Of a DNA stretch of 22,147 nt, positions 1,701-11,134 are shown piece by piece (the stretch's first letter is position 1; each line of letters opens with the position of its first letter). The DNA lies in the IMG/VR virus record IMGVR_UViG_3300030328_000151, positions 1 to 22,147 of that record. The stretch is one strand, 5' to 3'. The notes below the pieces were generated by a model. It made no database searches and was not told the origin of the DNA. It worked only from the letters and a program-made list of their open reading frames with translations. This DNA is from a virus. Both the position numbers and the translations under genes were made by a program.

Positions 1701-1815
1701 AGCATTGGCTCTTTTTAGAAGAAGGTCACAGACATATGTTGTGCCACCTAAAAAGGGCAAAGGTTCTTATACAAGGAAGGCTAAACATAATAATAAACTT
1801 GACAAGCCTTCCTAG
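1672..1815 (+). CDS. Small basic phage protein (47 aa)
   Basis: The ATG at 1672 opens a 47-codon frame ending at TAG 1813-1815. The peptide is very basic. It starts MIRRINPIARALALFRRR and continues with V-V-P-P-K-K-G-K-G-S-Y-T-R-K. Small basic phage proteins with an 'NPxAxxLxxF' start and a 'VxxxKKGKGSYxRK' tail occur in many phages, to my recollection with no known function; nucleic-acid binding is a guess from the charge. The -35 box of a promoter lies in its last codons. Confidence 0.6.
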   Translation: MIRRINPIARALALFRRRSQTYVVPPKKGKGSYTRKAKHNNKLDKPS

Positions 1816-1827
1816 TTGTTATATAAC
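1799..1827 (+). promoter_or_regulatory. Sigma70-type promoter before the DUF932-integrase pair
   Basis: TTGACA (1799-1804), 17-base spacer, TATAAC (1822-1827): 6/6 and 5/6 matches to consensus at ideal spacing. Transcription would start near 1833-1836, about 50 bases before the ATG at 1886. The -10 box sits inside a perfect 14-base palindrome. Confidence 0.75.
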
Positions 1828-1829
1828 AA
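1816..1829. promoter_or_regulatory. Operator-like palindrome over the -10 box
   Basis: TTGTTATATAACAA is a perfect 14-base palindrome that fully covers the -10 hexamer of the promoter at 1799-1827. A dimeric regulator bound here would block RNA polymerase. The regulator is not identified. Confidence 0.45.
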
Positions 1830-1846
1830 AGTATCACTTAACCAAA

Positions 1847-1863
1847 TGTCATAAGTTATGACA
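1847..1863. promoter_or_regulatory. Operator-like inverted repeat downstream of the transcription start
   Basis: TGTCATAA (1847-1854), one central G, TTATGACA (1856-1863): perfect 8-bp half sites around a single base. With such a short centre it is more likely a DNA-binding site for a dimer than an RNA hairpin. It lies between the predicted transcription start and the Shine-Dalgarno sequence of the gene at 1886. Confidence 0.5.
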
Positions 1864-1885
1864 CATTTTATGAAAGGAAATAAAA

Positions 1886-2740
1886 ATGCCATTAGATACA
1901 TACACAACTAACCTCTTTGAATTAGAGGGAACTAACCTAGACTTCAAAGTAAAATATGAAGATACTAAATTTACAGGTAAACGATACGTAAGGAACTCTG
2001 TAACAGGAGATTATCTAGGTATTGTTGGCGATAAATTTAAATCTATTAACCACCTTGATTATTTCAATGGTATCAAAAAGGTTATACAAGAGAATAGATT
2101 ACCTCACCACCTTGATGGTGCTAAAGTTAAAATATCTACTGCTCGTAATTCAGCTTTTGCTTTGATAGATATTATATTACCTAATGTAAAGCATACGATT
2201 GTTACATCTAGACATAAGACAGAGATTAATGAAAGAATGATTGCTCTGCATGGTATAGATGGCTCATGTTCTAACCAAGTTTACTTTGGTGCTATAGATA
2301 GCTATTGTTCCAATGGACAGATTGGTGGAGAGTTTGAGGCTATCAAAAGAAAGAATACAAGTGGTCTTGTTTTAGAGAGGTTACTACAGGAAGTAAGAGA
2401 TGCTAAAACTAACTTTGATATTCGTTGTCAGATGATGCAGAAGTGGGCAGATACACCTCTAAATGTAGATGGTAAGATTTTACTTGATAGCATTATTAAA
2501 TCAGAGAAAATATCTAAGAAGATGTATGAACTAGCCTGTCAAGAAATAGCAAAGAGAGGTAAAAATGTTTTTGCCTTATACTCTGCATTCACTAACTATG
2601 CATCATACGCAGATGAGAGAAATGGTTTCAATATTCGTAACACAGGTTTTGATACGAGAGCAGAAACTATGTGGAGAAGAGAGCAAGAAGTTGCTAAGTG
2701 GGTTTCTTCACCTCAATTTAAATCTTTAGTGGCAGCATAA
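1886..2740 (+). CDS. DUF932-like phage/plasmid protein (284 aa)
   Basis: The fold looks like DUF932, a family found on phages and plasmids with no proven biochemical role. The visible signs are an early 'Y-L-G-I-V-G-D-K-F' segment (about residues 43-51, compare the family's 'Y-x-x-V-x-x-x-F'), a central block with S-C-S-N-Q-V and S-Y-C-S-N-G-Q (about 131-145), and a C-terminal N-V-F-A-L-Y-S-A-F-T-N-Y-A segment. The length of 284 residues is in the family's range. The start ATG follows a GAAAGGAAA Shine-Dalgarno region. The gene is the first after a strong promoter with operators, and its stop overlaps the integrase start by one base (TAATG), so the two are co-expressed. Family assignment is from pattern memory only. 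Confidence 0.65.
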   Translation: MPLDTYTTNLFELEGTNLDFKVKYEDTKFTGKRYVRNSVTGDYLGIVGDKFKSINHLDYFNGIKKVIQENRLPHHLDGAKVKISTARNSAFALIDIILPNVKHTIVTSRHKTEINERMIALHGIDGSCSNQVYFGAIDSYCSNGQIGGEFEAIKRKNTSGLVLERLLQEVRDAKTNFDIRCQMMQKWADTPLNVDGKILLDSIIKSEKISKKMYELACQEIAKRGKNVFALYSAFTNYASYADERNGFNIRNTGFDTRAETMWRREQEVAKWVSSPQFKSLVAA

Positions 2741-3675
2741 TGAAAGTTCAAGACTTACTCAAGGAGTACTATTTATCCTTTGAATACAATAACTTACGAG
2801 AAGAAACTAAAGCACAATATAAATACTTTTTGGGTATAGTTTCTTCAACAAGTGTGGTTGATAATAAAGAGTTAGGCAGTTATAAACTGTCTAGCTTGAC
2901 CACCAAACTTGCTAAGTTATCTTACAATAAATGGTGTGATAGAGGTGTATCGTTTGCTAATCATCTTATGTCTGTTATTAGAGTGTTACTTAATTACGGA
3001 ATAAATATGGAACATTGTGTGATGAATCCATTTAGTAATATTAAGAAACGTGTCGTTGCACATAGAAAAGTTGTTTGGTCAAAGGATGACGTTATCAGGT
3101 TTCTTGATACTGCCTACTCTGATTTTAAGACTAGGAACATAGGACTAATTGCTCAGATGGCATATGAATGGTGTCAAAGAATTGGCGATATGAGATTACT
3201 TGAATGGTCTAGTTTAAAATTAGATGAAAAAAGGATACATATTGAACAATCAAAGAGAAGAGCAGAAGTATTTTTACCTATATCTGATGAGTTATGTGAG
3301 ATGCTAATACAACAAAAAGAAGACTATGGGTTTCAGAAGTATGTAGTACCTCGCCCAAGAGCTTTTAAGGGGGTCTACAAGCCTTATTCGCTTACTAAAC
3401 TACCAATCATAGCTAGGAAGATTATGACCTCTGCAGGACTCTCTAATGAGCTTAGATTGAGTGACTTACGAAGGACAGGAACAGTTGAAATGGTAGATGC
3501 AGGAGTGTCTATGGGAAACATTATGTCAGTAACAGGTCATGCTAATCCACAATCTGTTAAACCATATATGAAAAATACTTTTACTAGTGCTAATTTAGCA
3601 TGGCAACAAAGAAAAAATTTGACAGAAAATAAAAACCATGATATAAGCATGGTATATGCCGACAAGGAAAGGTAG
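2740..3675 (+). CDS. int: Tyrosine recombinase (phage integrase)
   Basis: This 311-residue protein has the two-domain plan of tyrosine recombinases. A SAM-like core-binding domain occupies residues 1-105 and the catalytic domain about 110-285. Catalytic positions visible: Arg147 (C-Q-R-I-G-D-M-R), a beta-hairpin Lys at 172 (Q-S-K-R-R), Arg244 in S-D-L-R-R-T, His267 in V-T-G-H-A-N, and nucleophile Tyr276 in K-P-Y-M-K. The usual first His of the HxxR box is Ser241. In the family these residues cut and join attachment sites. A DUF932-like gene lies directly upstream and primase directly downstream, so it sits at the head of the replication genes. I found no attachment site or tRNA fragment nearby. 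It could also resolve genome multimers. Confidence 0.9.
   Translation: MKVQDLLKEYYLSFEYNNLREETKAQYKYFLGIVSSTSVVDNKELGSYKLSSLTTKLAKLSYNKWCDRGVSFANHLMSVIRVLLNYGINMEHCVMNPFSNIKKRVVAHRKVVWSKDDVIRFLDTAYSDFKTRNIGLIAQMAYEWCQRIGDMRLLEWSSLKLDEKRIHIEQSKRRAEVFLPISDELCEMLIQQKEDYGFQKYVVPRPRAFKGVYKPYSLTKLPIIARKIMTSAGLSNELRLSDLRRTGTVEMVDAGVSMGNIMSVTGHANPQSVKPYMKNTFTSANLAWQQRKNLTENKNHDISMVYADKER
3619..3647 (+). promoter_or_regulatory. Sigma70-type promoter before the primase
   Basis: TTGACA (3619-3624), 17-base spacer, TATAAG (3642-3647). It lies within the last 20 codons of the integrase gene, with a predicted start near 3654 and the primase ATG at 3684. CCATG (3636-3640) and CATGG (3648-3652) form an inverted repeat flanking the -10 box. 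Confidence 0.65.
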
Positions 3676-3683
3676 TATATAAT

Positions 3684-4472
3684 ATGTTTAATATATATGA
3701 ATATGTAGAACATTTAAATGTAGAGAATGGAGAATCACGTAGACTTAATTGTCCTATGTGTAAATCGTATAAAACATTTACTGTAACTAACAACATGGGT
3801 TCTTTGTTATGGAATTGTTACAAGGCTTCTTGTAGTGTAAAGGGAAGTACACGTATACATTTATCTGTAGATGACATACGTTCAATACAACAGAAAAGTG
3901 AATCAAAACAAGGAGATAGCTTTGCTTTACCTGAATATGTAGTTTCTCATGTTGGAAGAAGTGAAGTGTCTAAGTGGTGTCACAAATGGAGTATTGACCC
4001 TGATGCACTAGATTTACATTATGATGTTAAGGAACACAGAGTTGTGTTTCCTATTAAGTCTAAAGGAAGAATTGTTGATGCTACAGGTAGGTCTATCCTA
4101 CGAAAAATACCTAAATGGAAAAGATATGGTAATTCGGACTTGCCTTTTTCATTTGGTTGTGGTAGTATCGCAATCGTAGTTGAGGACTGCATAAGTGCAG
4201 GAGTTGTAGGTAGTGATGTATATGTTGGGGTAGCTGTGTTGGGTACATCATTGTCAGATTCACATAAACAATTCTTGTCGCAGTTCTCAACTACTATCAT
4301 AGCACTTGACCCTGATGCCCTACCTAAGACATTATCATTTGCTAAAGAGTTACGTTCTTATGTTAAGGATGTAAGGATACTAAATTTAAAAGATGACATT
4401 AAATATAAACGAAAGGAAGATATTTTAAAATTGAAACAATTAACCCCAAAGGAGACACAGTTATGGAATTAG
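3684..4472 (+). CDS. DNA primase with zinc finger and TOPRIM domain
   Basis: A 262-residue primase that would make RNA primers for lagging-strand synthesis. The N-terminus carries a zinc-binding site: Cys23-x2-Cys26 and Cys45-x4-Cys50, as in phage T7-type primases that use it to read the priming site. The C-terminal half has TOPRIM features: V-V-E-D-C-I-S-A at about 165-172 (acidic Glu167) and I-I-A-L-D-P-D-A at 205-212 (Asp209, Asp211), which hold metal ions. Unlike T7 gp4, primase and helicase are separate genes here, overlapping by 10 bases. The ATG follows a purine-rich AAGGAAAGG. TOPRIM Glu followed by Asp-Cys instead of the common Gly-x-x-D is unusual. Confidence 0.85.
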   Translation: MFNIYEYVEHLNVENGESRRLNCPMCKSYKTFTVTNNMGSLLWNCYKASCSVKGSTRIHLSVDDIRSIQQKSESKQGDSFALPEYVVSHVGRSEVSKWCHKWSIDPDALDLHYDVKEHRVVFPIKSKGRIVDATGRSILRKIPKWKRYGNSDLPFSFGCGSIAIVVEDCISAGVVGSDVYVGVAVLGTSLSDSHKQFLSQFSTTIIALDPDALPKTLSFAKELRSYVKDVRILNLKDDIKYKRKEDILKLKQLTPKETQLWN

Positions 4473-5686
4473 CATTAATACGAAGCCTGATGGATAAATC
4501 TTTTTATGATGACCATCGTGGAGCAAAATGTCCTGATAGATTATTTAGTAAGGACATCAGAAAAATAAAACAGGCTATAGATTCGGCTATGAGTAGATAT
4601 GAACGTAGTGTTACACCTGATGAGATTGAGGCATTGTTTGTGTCTAACAATCCGTCTATGACAACTGCTCAGAAACAAGCCTATAGTTCTTTGTTTGGAC
4701 AAATTAAGAATGAAAAGCCTATGGGTGCAGATGTGGCACAGGAAGTCTTATCAAAACTATTCCAACAAATTGTTGGAGAGGATATTGCTAACATAGGATT
4801 TGATTACGTGAATGGTTCTCATTCTTCTCTAGAACCTATAAGAAATATACTTGAAATGTATGGAGATGATTTTACACCTAATTTAAATGTGGAGTGGGAT
4901 GACATGGAGATAGAAACACTATTAGCTAAAAATGATTTAGAGGCACGTTGGTCTTTCAATGTTCCTGCTCTTACTAGACAAGTAGAGGGTATAAATTCAG
5001 GACACTTAATTGAAATAGGTGCTAGACCTAACACAGGTAAGACATCTTTTCATGCGAGTTTATTGGCAGGACCAAATGGATTGGCACAACAAGGTGCTAA
5101 TTGTATTATCTTATGTAATGAAGAAGGAAGTCATAGAGTAGGTGCTAGATACTTAACTGCATCAACAGGTATGACAATGAGAGAGATAAAAGCTAATCCT
5201 AGTAAAGCTAGGGATTTGTATGCTTCTGTAAAAGATAATATAAAGATTAAAGATGCTACAGGTAGAGACATGTCATGGGTGGAGAGTGTGTGTAAATCAT
5301 ACAAACCTGATATAGTTATATTAGACATGGGAGATAAGTTTGCACGAACAGGTGGCTTTGCTAGAACTGATGAGGCATTAAAAGCTAATGCAGTTCATGC
5401 TCGTATGATTGCCAAAGAGCATAAGTGTGCTATGTTTTATATGTCACAATTATCTGCAGATGCAGAGGGTAAGGTGTTACTTAATCAAAGCATGATGGAA
5501 GGCAGTAGAACAGGAAAGGCAGCAGAAGCAGACCTTATGATTTTAATTGCAAAGAATCCACCACGACAAGATGAAACAGAAGAAGATTTACAAAGGCATT
5601 TAAATGTGGTAAAGAATAAACTTACAGGATGGCATGGTGTCGTTCATTGTAACCTTAATTATAAAGTAGGAAGGTATGAAGTATGA
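4463..5686 (+). CDS. Replicative DNA helicase, DnaB/RecA-fold type
   Basis: A 407-residue helicase that should unwind DNA 5'-3' as a hexameric ring ahead of the polymerase. The N-terminal 150 residues are helical and resemble a primase-interaction/linker region. The RecA-type core has Walker A G-A-R-P-N-T-G-K-T-S (186-195), a catalytic acidic pair in C-N-E-E-G (about 218-222), Walker B I-V-I-L-D-M-G-D (284-291) and a sensor-like M-S-Q-L (327-330). A basic element (M-E-G-S-R-T-G-K, 345-352) follows, as in DnaB family proteins. It is shorter than E. coli DnaB (about 470). It overlaps the primase by 10 bases and endonuclease VII by 4 (ATGA), consistent with one translated unit. Confidence 0.88.
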   Translation: MELALIRSLMDKSFYDDHRGAKCPDRLFSKDIRKIKQAIDSAMSRYERSVTPDEIEALFVSNNPSMTTAQKQAYSSLFGQIKNEKPMGADVAQEVLSKLFQQIVGEDIANIGFDYVNGSHSSLEPIRNILEMYGDDFTPNLNVEWDDMEIETLLAKNDLEARWSFNVPALTRQVEGINSGHLIEIGARPNTGKTSFHASLLAGPNGLAQQGANCIILCNEEGSHRVGARYLTASTGMTMREIKANPSKARDLYASVKDNIKIKDATGRDMSWVESVCKSYKPDIVILDMGDKFARTGGFARTDEALKANAVHARMIAKEHKCAMFYMSQLSADAEGKVLLNQSMMEGSRTGKAAEADLMILIAKNPPRQDETEEDLQRHLNVVKNKLTGWHGVVHCNLNYKVGRYEV

Positions 5687-6126
5687 CACAATTTAATTTA
5701 TTTAAGGAATTGCCACATAAAGAAAATCCATTTGTTGATGGGGTTGTCTGTATAAAATGTAATATAAGACAACCCATAACACACTATTCTGTTATGAAAG
5801 CAGGTGAAATAAAGAGAACTTGCAGGTCATGTAGAAAAGGACATAAAGAAGTATTAAATAAGTTACGTAAAGAAAATGAATACCCTGATAAAGATTATTC
5901 GTGTGCTATTTGTGATAGGACATTAGAAGAGTTAGGTAAGCATGGGCAAACTAGACTACAAAATTGGGTATTAGACCATTGTCACGATACTAATACATTT
6001 AGAGGTTGGGTGTGTCATAAATGCAACACAGGTTTAGGTGGATTTTCTGATGACTTGACAATACTAGAAAAAGCAGTTATATATTTAGAAAAACATAAGG
6101 AAAAATTAAATGAAACTAACGATTGA
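5683..6126 (+). CDS. Recombination endonuclease VII (HNH/beta-beta-alpha-metal nuclease)
   Basis: A 147-residue nuclease of the phage T4 gp49 type, which cuts Holliday junctions and branched DNA before packaging. The C-terminal half has the family signature: Cys74-x2-Cys77, then D-H-C-H-D (98-102, with the metal-binding and catalytic residues), then G-W-V-C-H-K-C-N-T-G-L-G (109-119). The two Cys pairs (74/77 and 111/114) would bind a structural zinc. A second zinc-ribbon-like set, Cys23-x2-Cys26 and Cys47-x2-Cys50, fills the N-terminus. The start ATG overlaps the helicase stop (ATGA); the end overlaps the polymerase start by 17 bases. Confidence 0.9.
   Translation: MTQFNLFKELPHKENPFVDGVVCIKCNIRQPITHYSVMKAGEIKRTCRSCRKGHKEVLNKLRKENEYPDKDYSCAICDRTLEELGKHGQTRLQNWVLDHCHDTNTFRGWVCHKCNTGLGGFSDDLTILEKAVIYLEKHKEKLNETND
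6055..6083 (+). promoter_or_regulatory. Possible sigma70-type promoter before DNA polymerase
   Basis: A perfect TTGACA (6055-6060) is followed after 17 bases by TATATA (6078-6083); with a 19-base spacer it is TATATT. It lies in the end of the endonuclease VII gene, about 27 bases before the polymerase ATG. It is weaker than the other promoters, and an AT-rich chance match is possible. Confidence 0.4.
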
Positions 6127-8131
6127 CGTAGAAAATACAACAACGAAGAGAGATGGTAAGATGCATCTTGACCCATTTGAGCCAACTAATAAATTGGTTA
6201 TGGTGGGTTGTCTTGATGATAATGGACAACATTATTTATTTAACATGGACAGGGATGAGCCTAATAATATACAAGAGTTGTTAGATAAAGCAACAGTCTT
6301 AATAGGACATAATATTGCTTATGACTTGATGTGGCTTTGGGAATGTGGCTTTAAATATGATGGAATAGTATTTGATACCATGCTTGTTGAGTATGTAATG
6401 CAAAGAGGTATTAAACAGGCATCTTCTTTAGAGGCTTGTGCAGAGAGATATAATTTAGAAACCAAGAAACAAGATACCCTTAAACAATACTTTGCTAAAG
6501 ATATGGGGGTAGATGAAATACCTAGAGATGAGTTATCTGAATATTTGTTAGCAGATTTAAAAGCAACTCAACAACTGTCTAATGTATTATATAAAAAATT
6601 AATTACCACAGATTATCATAGTTTATATGAATCCATATTGCTTACTAATAGAGTGTCTGTTGCTTTAGCAAAAATATATTGTAAGGGATTTGCAGTTGAC
6701 AAAGATAAATTACAAGAAGTACGTGAGGAATTTGAGCAAGAAAAAGCAGATGTTGAAAATAGATTAAAGGAACAGGTTAGAAATTTAATGGGAGATACAC
6801 CTATTAATTTGAGTAGTCCTGAACAAATGTCTTGGGTCATCTATAGTAGGAAGCCTAAAGATAAGGCTATGTGGGCGAATAACTTTATACCTTATATGAA
6901 TAAAGAGGATTATAAAGATAATGTTAAAGAGTATTCTAGTGTAGTATATAAGACTAAAGCAGTTAAGTGTGTAGATTGTAATGGAGAGGGGTACATCAGA
7001 AAAGTTAAAAAAGATGGTAACTTATATTCTAAACCAAGTAGATGTATTTCATGTGGTACACATGGGTATTTGTTTAACAATACAGATGAAGTGGCAGGAT
7101 TAAGATTTTCTGCACCAAATTCTAAATGGGTTAGTGCTAATGGCTTTACTATAAACAAAGCATACTTAGATACCATAAGAAGTGTAGCTAGAAAAAATAG
7201 TATGACTAATGCAGTAAACTTTCTAACTGATTTACAGAGATTGTCTGCACTAGAAACATATTTGTCTTCTTTTGTTGAGGGCATTAATACACATCTTAAA
7301 CCTGATGGTATGCTTCATGTTAGATTATTACAACATAGAACTGCCACAGGCAGGTTTAGTGGAGCAGACCCTAATATGCAGAATATGCCTAGAGGTGGTA
7401 CATTTCCTGTTAAAAAGGTATTCGTATCACGTTGGAAAGGTGGCAAGATATTAGAGGCAGACTTTGCACAGTTAGAGTTTAGAACTGCAGCTTATTTGTC
7501 TCAAGATAAAATAGCAATAGAGGAGATTAAAAATGGATTTGATGTGCATAGTTATACTGCTAGTGTTATTAGTGAGGCAGGTCAGAAAACGACTAGGCAA
7601 GAAGGGAAAGCACATACCTTTGCACCCCTCTACGGAGCAACAGGATTTGGGAGAACGAATGCTGAAGCTACATATTATAAACAGTTCACGCAAAAGTACA
7701 AAGGTATCGCATCATGGCATTCCAGATTGGCTAAAGAGGCTTTAGAAACAGGTATGATAACGACACCATCAGGTAGGCAATTTGCTTTTCCTGATGTGGA
7801 GAGAAGGTCTAATGGAACTGTATCATATTTTACACAAATAAAAAATTATCCTGTTCAATCTTTTGCTACTGCAGATATAGTTCCATTAATTTTGTTAAAT
7901 ATTATTGAAGCACTTGACAAGTACCAGTCATGTGTGGTAAATACAGTACATGACTCTATAGTTATTGATATACACCCATTAGAGATACATAATGTTCTTG
8001 ATATGATTCGTAACATTAATAATTCTCTACTAGGTTTAGTTAATAAACAGTTTACGTTAGACTTTAATGTTCCCTTATTATTAGAAGCAAAAATGGGGGA
8101 TAATTGGCTTGACACTACAGATGTTGTGTGA
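6110..8131 (+). CDS. polA: Family A DNA polymerase with 3'-5' exonuclease and inserted DnaJ-like zinc finger
   Basis: The replicative polymerase, 673 residues. The exonuclease domain (about 1-170) has all three motifs: Asp6-x-Glu8, H-N-x-x-Y-D ending at Asp72, and Y145-x3-D149. After an S-P-E-Q-M segment (236-240, the usual thumb entry) comes an inserted stretch with C287-V-D-C290-N-G-E-G and C312-I-S-C315-G-T-H-G, like two of the four DnaJ zinc repeats. The polymerase part follows: T-A-T-G-R (411-415), motif A Asp451 with E456-x-R458, motif B Arg496, Lys500, Phe504 and Tyr508-Gly509, and motif C V-H-D-S (613-616, Asp615). Phe504 aligns with E. coli Pol I Phe762. It starts inside the endonuclease VII gene. 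The zinc-finger insertion points to HMO-2011-type phages. Confidence 0.96.
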   Translation: MKLTIDVENTTTKRDGKMHLDPFEPTNKLVMVGCLDDNGQHYLFNMDRDEPNNIQELLDKATVLIGHNIAYDLMWLWECGFKYDGIVFDTMLVEYVMQRGIKQASSLEACAERYNLETKKQDTLKQYFAKDMGVDEIPRDELSEYLLADLKATQQLSNVLYKKLITTDYHSLYESILLTNRVSVALAKIYCKGFAVDKDKLQEVREEFEQEKADVENRLKEQVRNLMGDTPINLSSPEQMSWVIYSRKPKDKAMWANNFIPYMNKEDYKDNVKEYSSVVYKTKAVKCVDCNGEGYIRKVKKDGNLYSKPSRCISCGTHGYLFNNTDEVAGLRFSAPNSKWVSANGFTINKAYLDTIRSVARKNSMTNAVNFLTDLQRLSALETYLSSFVEGINTHLKPDGMLHVRLLQHRTATGRFSGADPNMQNMPRGGTFPVKKVFVSRWKGGKILEADFAQLEFRTAAYLSQDKIAIEEIKNGFDVHSYTASVISEAGQKTTRQEGKAHTFAPLYGATGFGRTNAEATYYKQFTQKYKGIASWHSRLAKEALETGMITTPSGRQFAFPDVERRSNGTVSYFTQIKNYPVQSFATADIVPLILLNIIEALDKYQSCVVNTVHDSIVIDIHPLEIHNVLDMIRNINNSLLGLVNKQFTLDFNVPLLLEAKMGDNWLDTTDVV

Positions 8132-8137
8132 TATAAC
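8109..8137 (+). promoter_or_regulatory. Sigma70-type promoter before the candidate ssDNA-binding protein
   Basis: TTGACA (8109-8114), 17-base spacer, TATAAC (8132-8137), spanning the polymerase stop codon. The predicted start is near 8144, and the next ATG is at 8167 after a strong AAAGGAG (8151-8157). The boxes and spacing are the same as in the promoter at 1799. Confidence 0.75.
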
Positions 8138-8166
8138 TATTATTCTTTTGAAAGGAGAAATTAAAT

Positions 8167-9057
8167 ATGAGTGAATTAGTAACGATAAATACTGAAAATT
8201 ATGCCACTATGGCAAGGGCAATGGGTTTGCCTGTTAGTAGTGGTGAGAAAAAAGTTAATACTTTAAATAGACTAAAGATACAACATAAACCTATAATAGG
8301 AGATGATAAGGTTTTAGTTAAAGCAGGTAGTCTTTTGCTTGAGAATGTAGGAGAGGAAAATACTTATTACTATGCAGAGAAAGCTAAGTTTAGACCTTTT
8401 CTGCAAAGGTTTTTGTACAAAAGATATTACCAAGATATAAATAGATATTCTACTACTATAATGGCAGATAATCTAAATATAGATTTAAAAGATGACTATG
8501 GAACTTTTAATTGTGGAAAACCTACAGGGTATGTGAAAGACTTTCAGGCTCTACCTGAAAAAACTAAAGCTATAATAAAAGCTGTTAAAAGACAAAGGGC
8601 AGTTTTTGGAACTCTAGAGTTAGAGAAACCTGTAAAACTTGTAGATGGTAAAGAGGTTAAAGGGGATTTACCTAAGTTTCCTACTATATGGGAGATTGGA
8701 AGTAACATTCTTTACAAAGATATGGGAGACATATTTTCTAGATTCTTAAAAATGGAGAGACTGCCTCTTCAACATGTTATAGAATTATATGATACAGAAA
8801 ATTACTACACTAGTGGCACAGGTGAAAAATACTACAAGCCTCTTTTGAAAGTAGACTACACTAAAAAGGCAGAAATATCTGAAGATGACCATAAAATGTT
8901 TGGAGATTTCTTAGATTGGATTAAGGCACATAATGATAATGTGACTAGAAAATGGGATGAACAGGTTGCAGAACGTCAAGGAGACGTATCAGAAGAAGAT
9001 GCAAAAACTGTGGAGCAATTCATTGATGTAGAACTAGAGACTGATGAAAAGCAATAA
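8167..9057 (+). CDS. Hypothetical protein, candidate ssDNA-binding protein (296 aa)
   Basis: I do not recognise a family by sequence. Three features suggest a single-stranded DNA-binding protein. It lies between the DNA polymerase and the exonuclease, where many phages encode one. It has its own strong promoter and AAAGGAG ribosome site, fitting a protein needed in many copies. It also ends in an acidic tail (last 35 residues rich in D/E, ending E-L-E-T-D-E-K-Q), like the tails by which T7 gp2.5 and other SSBs bind partners. The body is rich in aromatic and basic residues (for example R-F-L-Y-K-R-Y-Y at about 81-88). No catalytic motif is seen. The assignment rests on context, not on homology. 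Confidence 0.5.
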   Translation: MSELVTINTENYATMARAMGLPVSSGEKKVNTLNRLKIQHKPIIGDDKVLVKAGSLLLENVGEENTYYYAEKAKFRPFLQRFLYKRYYQDINRYSTTIMADNLNIDLKDDYGTFNCGKPTGYVKDFQALPEKTKAIIKAVKRQRAVFGTLELEKPVKLVDGKEVKGDLPKFPTIWEIGSNILYKDMGDIFSRFLKMERLPLQHVIELYDTENYYTSGTGEKYYKPLLKVDYTKKAEISEDDHKMFGDFLDWIKAHNDNVTRKWDEQVAERQGDVSEEDAKTVEQFIDVELETDEKQ

Positions 9058-9793
9058 TCCATTTAAAGTACATAATATTAATTATTTGTCACCTAGCAGT
9101 ATTAATACCTACATAAGCGATATGCCTATGTGGGTAGCTAGGTATCTCTTTAGAGTTAAATCAAGTAGTGGTGCAGGTGCAGTAAGAGGCATTGTGCAAG
9201 AATCTGTTTTAGCTAATAAATATGAAACAGGAACATTTGATTATAAATTATTAGAGATGAAATTTATGACTATGTGTACAGAATCAATGATTGATTTGGG
9301 TGATGTTAAAGTAGAAAAAGAAAGGAACTTACTAAATAAATTTGGTGAGGTGATTGATAAAAACTTTAACTATAAAGACTTAGAAGAGTACCAAGAAAAA
9401 GTTGAAGTGCCTTTTGATGATATGCCTGTTCCTATTATGGGTTATATAGATTTTAGATTTAAAGATAAAATTGTAGATTTAAAGACATCAACTAGAATGC
9501 CTTATAAACCTACAGAGGCACAAAATAGACAAATGGCATTATATTCTATGGCATACCCAAACAGTAGTGTAGATTTATTTTTTGCTACACCAAAAGAGCA
9601 TAAAAAGTTTACACTTAAAAATCTTTCTGTCTATAAGAAACAACTTAAAAAGGTTGCTTTTAGTATTCAGAAATTTTTGTCTATCAGTAATGATAAACAT
9701 GAGTTAGCCTCTCTTGTCTATCCTAATTTTGATTCATGGATGTGGAATGGTAAGATAAAAGAAGAGGCAAAAAAAATATGGAAGGAGAAATAA
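9044..9793 (+). CDS. PD-(D/E)XK exonuclease, RecB/Cas4-like
   Basis: A 249-residue nuclease of the PD-(D/E)XK superfamily, with the RecB/Cas4 layout: an S-P-S-S-I-N-T-Y start (16-23), R-G-I-V-Q-E-S (48-54, Glu53), G-Y-I-D-F (133-137, Asp136), V-D-L-K-T-S (144-149, Asp145 and Lys147) and the Q-M-A-L-Y motif (163-167). These residues hold the metal ion and DNA. Proteins of this type act in phage recombination and in host DNA degradation, as T7 gp6 does by a different fold. I see no four-Cys iron-sulfur cluster, unlike true Cas4. It overlaps the previous gene by 14 bases and the next by one. Confidence 0.8.
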   Translation: MKSNNPFKVHNINYLSPSSINTYISDMPMWVARYLFRVKSSSGAGAVRGIVQESVLANKYETGTFDYKLLEMKFMTMCTESMIDLGDVKVEKERNLLNKFGEVIDKNFNYKDLEEYQEKVEVPFDDMPVPIMGYIDFRFKDKIVDLKTSTRMPYKPTEAQNRQMALYSMAYPNSSVDLFFATPKEHKKFTLKNLSVYKKQLKKVAFSIQKFLSISNDKHELASLVYPNFDSWMWNGKIKEEAKKIWKEK

Positions 9794-10023
9794 TGAGTGA
9801 TAAAAAAATAGAAGACCTTAAAAAGGATATTGAGCATATGGAAAAGGAATTAGCCGAAGCTAAAAAAACTTATCGTGAAATGAAAACGAAAGGTTTAAGA
9901 GATGCTATGGAAGCTAAAAAATTAGCAGACGAAGCAGTTAAAGAAGAAATGAAAGCTCTTGGTGTTTATTCTCAGGACTCTTATGAATTTAATCCTTTTA
10001 CAGGTTGGCGAAGACTACTATAG
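9793..10023 (+). CDS. Small coiled-coil protein (76 aa)
   Basis: I place the start at ATG 9793. It overlaps the exonuclease stop as TAATG and follows GAAGGAGAAA (9781-9790), a good ribosome site. An upstream in-frame ATG at 9778 lacks such a site. Residues 1-60 are a long charged helix, E/K-rich with few prolines or glycines, likely a coiled coil. A conserved-looking aromatic end follows (Y-E-F-N-P-F-T-G-W-R). The function is unknown. It lies between two nucleases and may assist one of them. Confidence 0.65.
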   Translation: MSDKKIEDLKKDIEHMEKELAEAKKTYREMKTKGLRDAMEAKKLADEAVKEEMKALGVYSQDSYEFNPFTGWRRLL

Positions 10024-10481
10024 TGTCTAAGACTAAAGCATATCGTAGTGCTTTAAAGCATGGGTATAGGAGTGGGTTAGAACGTACTATATCTTTATAT
10101 CTATCAGATAATAAGTATACGTTTGATTACGAAACTATTAAGATAGAATGGGAAGATTTATGTTATCGCACCTATACCCCTGACTTTATTTTACATAATG
10201 GTATTATAATAGAAACAAAAGGAAGATTTATTGCATCAGACAGACGTAAACATATAGCTATACAAAAGCAACACCCAAAGTTAGATATAAGATTTGTGTT
10301 TACTAATAGCAAAGCTAAATTACAAAAAGGTGCAAAGTCTACATATGGTCAATGGTGTGAAAAGTATAAGTTTAAATATAGTGACAGAGTTATACCTGAA
10401 TTTTGGCTTAAAGAAAAAGGAAAAAATAAACATCCTGAATTTATAAAATTTTCAGGTAAAAAAATAAGGAGAAGCATATGA
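10023..10481 (+). CDS. Endonuclease I, Holliday junction resolvase (T7 gp3-like)
   Basis: This matches T7 endonuclease I closely along its length. It has R-S-G-L-E near the start, then Y-T-P-D-F-I-L-H-N-G, I-I-E-T-K-G-R, D-R-R-K-H, Q-H-P-K-L-D-I-R-F-V-F and Y-G-Q-W-C. In T7 the catalytic residues are Glu20, Asp55, Glu65 and Lys67; from my chosen start they are Glu20, Asp54, Glu64 and Lys66. I chose the GTG at 10023, which overlaps the previous stop (TAGTG). A TTG at 10005 would add six residues and has no better ribosome site. The enzyme cuts branched DNA and host DNA. It is a second resolvase beside endonuclease VII. Confidence 0.9.
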   Translation: MSKTKAYRSALKHGYRSGLERTISLYLSDNKYTFDYETIKIEWEDLCYRTYTPDFILHNGIIIETKGRFIASDRRKHIAIQKQHPKLDIRFVFTNSKAKLQKGAKSTYGQWCEKYKFKYSDRVIPEFWLKEKGKNKHPEFIKFSGKKIRRSI

Positions 10482-10810
10482 TAAAATTTGACAATAAAGG
10501 AAATCAATTTTTTGTTGAAATTATACCTGATATTACGGATGATGGAGAATGGAAAGGGGTGTATCAGTTAGCAATAAATGCTAGAAAAACTAATATAACA
10601 GACGATAGCTATTTTGAATTAGAGCAATTATGTCAACTGACATGTGCAGCAATGACTTTAATGGAAGAAGACCCTAAATTAAGAGATAGGGTATATAAGT
10701 TTTTACACACACCTGAAGAAAATAATAATGATAACAAGAAAAGTGCTAATGGGGTTGACAAAACTATATTAGGTAATATAATAAAAGTTGATTTTAAGAA
10801 AAGTCATTAA
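10478..10810 (+). CDS. Hypothetical protein (110 aa)
   Basis: Unrecognised. It starts at ATG 10478, overlapping the endonuclease I stop by 4 bases, with AAGGAGAAG just upstream as a ribosome site. Residues 1-75 look folded: a beta hairpin (F-F-V-E-I-I-P-D), then helices with L-E-Q-L-C-Q-L-T-C-A-A-M and a D-P-K-L-R-D-R-V end. Residues 76-110 are a low-complexity Asn/Lys-rich tail. A near-perfect promoter lies within the codons of the tail, which may partly explain the loose coding there. The gene belongs to the same tight operon. Confidence 0.65.
   Translation: MIKFDNKGNQFFVEIIPDITDDGEWKGVYQLAINARKTNITDDSYFELEQLCQLTCAAMTLMEEDPKLRDRVYKFLHTPEENNNDNKKSANGVDKTILGNIIKVDFKKSH
10755..10782 (+). promoter_or_regulatory. 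Sigma70-type promoter before the DUF3310/RNR genes
   Basis: TTGACA (10755-10760), 16-base spacer, TATAAT (10777-10782): both boxes match consensus exactly. The predicted start is near 10789, about 20 bases before the ATG at 10811. It would drive DUF3310, the 57-residue protein and ribonucleotide reductase. Confidence 0.7.
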
Positions 10811-11134
10811 ATGAAATACAGAGATATGATAAGAGAAAGGATTAGAGAAGTGGCAGAAGAATTAAAGAAAAAAATGGAAGGTAATCAACCAAAGTTTTTA
10901 TCAGGTAAAATAAAAGAAGATATGGTAAATCACCCACCTCATTATAACAAGGCAGGAATAGAAACCATTGAAGCCATTAAAGCTATGACAGATGATGGGT
11001 TTGAATATTACTTACAAGGCAATATTATGAAATATTTGTGGAGATACAGGTATAAGAATGGTGCAGAAGATTTAAAGAAAGCACAATGGTATCTTAATGA
11101 GTTAATAGATGTGTTAGAGAACAATGAAAGTTAA
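10811..11134 (+). CDS. DUF3310 family protein (107 aa)
   Basis: The C-terminal two thirds match DUF3310, a small phage family often labelled 'nucleotide kinase' without firm proof. Visible signs: V-N-H-P-P-H-Y-N (about 38-45), then I-E-A-I-K-A-M, then G-N-I-M-K-Y-L-W-R-Y (70-79) and K-K-A-Q-W-Y-L-N-E-L (89-98). The His/Tyr-rich start and K-Y-x-W-R-Y core are the diagnostic parts. The first 35 residues are a charged, variable helix. It starts directly after the previous stop and behind a strong promoter, in the nucleotide-metabolism block. Confidence 0.85.
   Translation: MKYRDMIRERIREVAEELKKKMEGNQPKFLSGKIKEDMVNHPPHYNKAGIETIEAIKAMTDDGFEYYLQGNIMKYLWRYRYKNGAEDLKKAQWYLNELIDVLENNES

Follow-up and report, generated by a model that had tools for sequence, protein, structure and literature searches.

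Predicted host sigma70-type promoters with a mostly alphaproteobacterial −10 form precede replication genes of an HMO-2011-type phage

The window analyzed here is a stretch of 22.1 kb out of a 24.0 kb virus record that is itself a fragment, and it carries a small set of sites which we predict, with a probability of about 0.87, to be promoters at which the housekeeping RNA polymerase (sigma70 type) of an alphaproteobacterial host starts transcripts before the DUF932-like/integrase, primase, SSB candidate and DUF3310 genes and probably before polA. The sites have the form of housekeeping sigma70-type promoters: 5' of a gene and in its sense, a TTGACA-like and a TATAAT-like box are separated by 16-17 bp, within the 16-18 bp that define the type.

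The window phage is of the HMO-2011 type by its related polA and its conserved replication gene order. Its polA is 63% identical over the full length to that of Puniceispirillum phage HMO-2011 and 54-62% identical to those of Roseobacter phages CRP-345, CRP-1, CRP-603, CRP-207 and CRP-2. The genes run in the order of HMO-2011 (integrase, primase, helicase, polA, SSB candidate, exonuclease-like gene, endonuclease I, DUF3310, RNR and MazG), and the convergent structural genes after MazG likewise match that order. HMO-2011-type phages are one of the dominant marine viral groups, and cultivated members of the subgroup of the window phage infect SAR116 and Roseobacter (PMC9038755). The hosts of all 11 cultivated relatives are SAR116, Roseobacter or SAR11. 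Host assignment via polA in genome contigs yielded five loci, in which the same contigs occurred in unrelated MAGs, and none was assigned; identical related phage contigs were binned in both a Flavobacteriales MAG and a Neomarinimicrobiota MAG. Because identical contigs are binned into unrelated MAGs, MAG-based host calls are unreliable for HMO-2011-type phages. An Rfam search of the window gave no match.

Predicted promoter sites and their conservation

A search of the window for TTGACA-N15-19-TATAA gives four sites and no more (1799, 3619, 8109 and 10755), each on the plus strand, which also carries the window genes, promoters and promoter 1 leader elements located below. Promoter 1 (TTGACA-N17-TATAAC, 1799..1827) lies before the pair formed by the DUF932-like gene (1886..2740) and the tyrosine integrase gene (2740..3675), and promoter 2 (TTGACA-N17-TATAAG, 3619..3647) lies in the integrase end, before the DNA primase gene (3684..4472). 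Promoter 4 (TTGACA-N17-TATAAC, 8109..8137) spans the end of the DNA polymerase A gene polA (6110..8131), before the SSB candidate gene (8167..9057), and promoter 5 (TTGACA-N16-TATAAT, 10755..10782) precedes the genes for the DUF3310 protein (10811..11134; PF11753, E 2e-20) and RNR. These four came from the strict pattern scan, to which the codon test described below is added for promoter 4. A probable promoter 3 (TTGACA-N17-TATATA, 6055..6083) lies in the end of the endonuclease VII gene, before polA. The original prediction had named the same four pairs at 16-17 bases and the weaker fifth site, and all were recovered; it had also held that the remaining TTGACA hexamers lack a −10 box, which is true for the other 15 of 20 in the window, none of them followed at 15-19 nt by a hexamer with at most two mismatches to TATAAT. 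The predicted placement before genes was borne out but not the distance of 20-55 bases, since the −10 box and the start codon are 26-58 nt apart (58 nt at 1799, 36 at 3619, 26 at 6055, 29 at 8109 and 28 at 10755).

Two of the gene labels are qualified. The name DUF932-like is a fair one because the PF06067 score of 19 bits is under the Pfam cut-off of 23. The SSB candidate had no match in family searches; its structure model (pLDDT 82) has gp32-type SSBs as three of its four best fold matches, all weak with a best E of 0.011, which makes the label plausible only. Upstream of promoter 1, a possible terminator (1385-1407) separates two small genes; it consists of a nine-pair hairpin TGCTAGTGTTTTTCGCACTAGCA with a T-rich stretch after it.

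The strict pattern recurs in 80 viral contigs with related polA, where 122 sites follow the coding strand and 2 the opposite one; the spacer is 17 in 120 of the 124. In a larger deduplicated set of relatives, we looked for the motif with at most one mismatch within 130 nt 5' of each gene. It was present upstream of the SSB candidate in 99% of relatives (n=94), of the DUF932-like gene in 79% (n=33), of the primase in 69% (n=76), of DUF3310 in 30% (n=110) and of polA in 20% (n=95), compared with 0-1% for control stretches inside the SSB candidate, DUF932-like, primase and polA genes (the DUF3310 gene is not long enough for a control stretch). No enrichment was found before the integrase (3%), RNR (2%), or endonuclease I, orf10478 and MazG (0% each), and the 10% before the exonuclease gene was not above the 13% inside it. 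Since the motif is enriched before the genes originally listed and not before others, that list is specific and its conservation in relatives holds for the SSB candidate, DUF932-like and primase genes. The wording that every gene module is preceded by such a site goes too far, as the modules without enrichment and the sparsely kept DUF3310 site indicate. The latter (10755) is kept less often than the other three exact sites though it is the best E. coli match, so an E. coli promoter matrix would misjudge the phage sites. In the SAR11-type group, whose polA is about 41% identical, the strict motif precedes the SSB-candidate gene in 15 of 70 contigs with an unrelated spacer, and in subgroup III isolates (CRP-3 and others) the motif is absent at the polA end.

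The −10 box, a predicted late coat promoter and the polymerase

The base at −7 differs among the promoters. It is C in 93 of 93 SSB candidate promoters and in 55 of 55 coat promoters, mostly G before the primase (G42 T10), A before polA (A18 G1), and mixed before the DUF932-like gene (C13 G11 A1 T1) and DUF3310 (A13 C12 G6 T2); in general, TATAA is followed by A in 39%, T in 24%, C in 19% and G in 18% of cases. T is found at −7 in 13 of 223 sites over five junctions and in 0 of 55 at the coat gene, and window site 10755 has it. In E. coli and B. subtilis, −7T is present in >95% of sigma70 promoters, whereas it is missing from >60% of alphaproteobacterial ones, and CarD raises in vitro transcription from −7A/C/G promoters (PMC8407463). 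By this base, most of the phage −10 boxes would belong to the alphaproteobacterial −7A/C/G type, which the hosts of the cultivated relatives fit. From the −7 base alone we infer that host CarD may help the phage promoters, the −7T of the DUF3310 site in the window being an exception. A rule by which the host sets the −7 base, with −7T in SAR11-type phages, was suggested by several TATNAT boxes in HTVC033P and was rejected as a clean rule: in 80 relatives the SSB-candidate promoter has A, G or C at −7 (9 distinct sites, 0 with T), the TATGAT found where polA ends is coding sequence, and both the −7 base and the left-end promoters of that group are mixed.

The same promoter type precedes a late gene. 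All 6 subgroup I isolates have an N16, −7C site 192-230 nt before the opposite-strand coat gene (exact in three, one mismatch in three), and all 55 deduplicated coat loci in viral contigs have TTGACA-N16(17)-TATAAC 180-229 nt before the coat gene. The coat promoters usually have an A-rich tract before them and TATA after; the late promoter reads TTGACA-N16-TATAACTATA, and a leader of roughly 200 nt separates it from the coat gene. Because one promoter type precedes both replication and late capsid genes, the core sequence alone does not set timing. On the minus strand of three isolates (3282, 3943 and 3225), the first leftward gene has a TTGACA immediately ahead of its start codon and a TAAAAC 16 nt further on, inside the gene; this is possibly a leftward promoter or a coding coincidence.

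The search for a phage polymerase covered the T7 family and sigma70 region 2. T7-type RNA polymerase (PF00940) and sigma70 region 2 (PF04542) are absent from the 11 complete isolates and the 24 kb record of the window, as is the CarD domain (PF02559), while PF00940 was detected in T7 and PF04542 and PF02559 in control genomes. The statement in the original prediction that there is no phage RNA polymerase thus extends, for the T7 type, from the window to its record and the isolates. Its reading of early transcription by unaided host sigma70 polymerase fared less evenly: the sigma70-type sites stood, their position being conserved across the family, but "early" is at odds with the late, opposite-strand coat promoters. 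"Unaided" is likewise at odds with −10 boxes mostly lacking −7T, which in alphaproteobacteria points to host CarD help (PMC8407463), and with a conserved, covarying palindrome just downstream of promoter 1.

Among other readings, the one that survives best is that the motif is a promoter needing a phage-encoded activator, or is read by a phage polymerase or sigma factor that escaped detection. Late and early promoters that look alike make some phage control of timing likely, and the conservation beyond host rules (the invariant −7C of the SSB candidate and coat promoters) is unexplained. Against this, the bipartite TTGACA-N16/17-TATAA is the housekeeping form, and neither a T7-type polymerase nor sigma region 2 was found. 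We consider such a dedicated phage factor improbable, though a phage regulator could act on the promoters, and the host sigma70 polymerase appears to be the best candidate for transcribing the phage genes. A heat-shock (RpoH) reading was set aside, since no base before TTGACA is common to the junctions and the −10 box is TATAA; given what heat-shock promoters generally look like, it is presumably unlikely.

With the host polymerase, the consensus −35 box would recruit sigma70 polymerase, host CarD/CdnL would support open-complex formation, and transcripts would start before the next unit from sites in or just after the preceding gene. Nested within a single gene array, the promoters would supplement read-through and not isolate operons. 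Timing would come from something other than the core promoter, as the late coat gene has the same promoter type.

Selection on the DNA and the leader of promoter 1

Some sites lie at gene ends that encode conserved protein motifs, among them the −35 boxes at 6055 and 8109, and conservation of the proteins (polA C-terminus NWLDTKDV, endonuclease VII DLTILEKAVIYL) might be what keeps the sites. We compared codons in 83 polA genes over 307 columns in which at least 90% of rows share a single degenerate amino acid. Just 2 of the 307 columns use a single codon throughout, CTT for Leu667 and GAC for Asp668, and these make up the −35 box of promoter 4. The median relative codon entropy in polA columns was 0.87. 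The −10 box at 8109 lies outside the end of the reading frame, and in five relatives whose polA stops one codon earlier, TATAAC is still 16-17 nt from TTGACA. Selection at promoter 4 therefore acts on DNA rather than protein, and coding constraint is already contradicted as an explanation of the 8109 site. Coding constraint is a very improbable account of the whole set: the coat and DUF932 sites, and some of those before the primase, fall in non-coding sequence or where gene ends vary. The site in endonuclease VII (6055) probably has similar but weaker support: wherever distinct relatives have retained Leu-Thr/Asn at this place, the Leu codon is TTG (29 of 29), and TTG makes up 16% of Leu codons in polA.

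Chance matches in AT-rich sequence can be dismissed as having a negligible probability and as already contradicted, because the strict motif, with its four sites, is far above dinucleotide shuffles of the window (mean 0.32, maximum 3, at least four in 0 of 100) and is kept at orthologous places, even though a generic sigma70 scan, which taken alone would suit chance, showed no excess (89 sites against 90.8 expected from shuffles). The comparison with shuffled sequence proposed along with the original prediction thus favors the sites. The reversed pattern, read backwards, has zero sites in the whole 24.0 kb record. When one mismatch was allowed, 8 plus-strand sites were found compared to 2-5 in five shuffles, so the extra sites at 2858, 9608 and 11546 are at chance level. 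The looser scans carry no signal, and only the strict motif rises above shuffles.

The leader of promoter 1 contains a conserved element TATCACTTAACC (1832..1843) followed by a palindrome TGTCATAAGTTATGACA (1847..1863) about 20 nt past the −10 box. The arms of the palindrome covary in 22 relatives, with 97% of cells pairing and changes on both sides in 4 of 6 pairs. Cells changed on both sides number 15, against 4.1 in shuffles (0 of 500) and 0-2 in slid controls; since related sequences share ancestry, the independent changes are fewer than these 15 cells. Single-sided changes were found in none of the six pairs, a pattern more in line with a DNA operator bound by a dimeric regulator, and RNA folding gave a z of only −1.2. 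The palindrome may be an operator or an RNA hairpin, with the pattern of changes leaning to the operator. Promoter 1 is probably regulated through it, which would allow specific control of the integrase unit.

Meaning and comparison with known systems

We found no described promoters for HMO-2011-type phages in the literature searched, which covered few subscription papers. Elements of this kind are known, and the conserved phage set with a fixed −7C appears to be undescribed. From this set, an exact start site can be predicted for each of five window units and for one late unit that lies outside the window. One speculative idea, to which we give a low chance, is that the lineage fixes −7C in those replication and capsid promoters that it conserves most, making both depend on the host growth factor CarD and not on a phage polymerase or sigma factor. 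If that were true, infection would be tied to the growth state of the host, and timing would come from spacer length (16 at the coat, 17 at the SSB candidate), leader elements or a further regulator. This raises the question of whether phage transcription is driven by CarD-assisted initiation of the kind known from host genes.

The window phage shares with T7-like phages (Autographiviridae) replication genes that run in one direction. T7-like phages use the host polymerase at the start of infection. They carry their own RNA polymerase as well, whereas none was found in the fragment record of the window or the 11 complete isolates. With the −7A/C/G promoters of Rhodobacter, Caulobacter, Zymomonas and Novosphingobium (PMC8407463), the phage sites have in common the TTG of the −35 box, 17 bp as the commonest spacing and a −10 box mostly without −7T. 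The phage promoters differ in a perfect TTGACA and in a −7 base fixed by position, C at the SSB candidate and coat and mostly G at the primase, while the host promoters use the four −7 bases about equally, unlike the invariant phage C (PMC8407463). This promoter class is known from host genes and not from HMO-2011-type phages. Other phages without an RNA polymerase of their own also have near-consensus host sigma70 sites near replication genes, an example being the sigma70 promoters reported for pelagiphage Skadi-1 (PMC10504331); beyond that report, the analysis of the window phage adds tests of conservation and codon selection, a −10 box of apparently alphaproteobacterial form and a matching late promoter.
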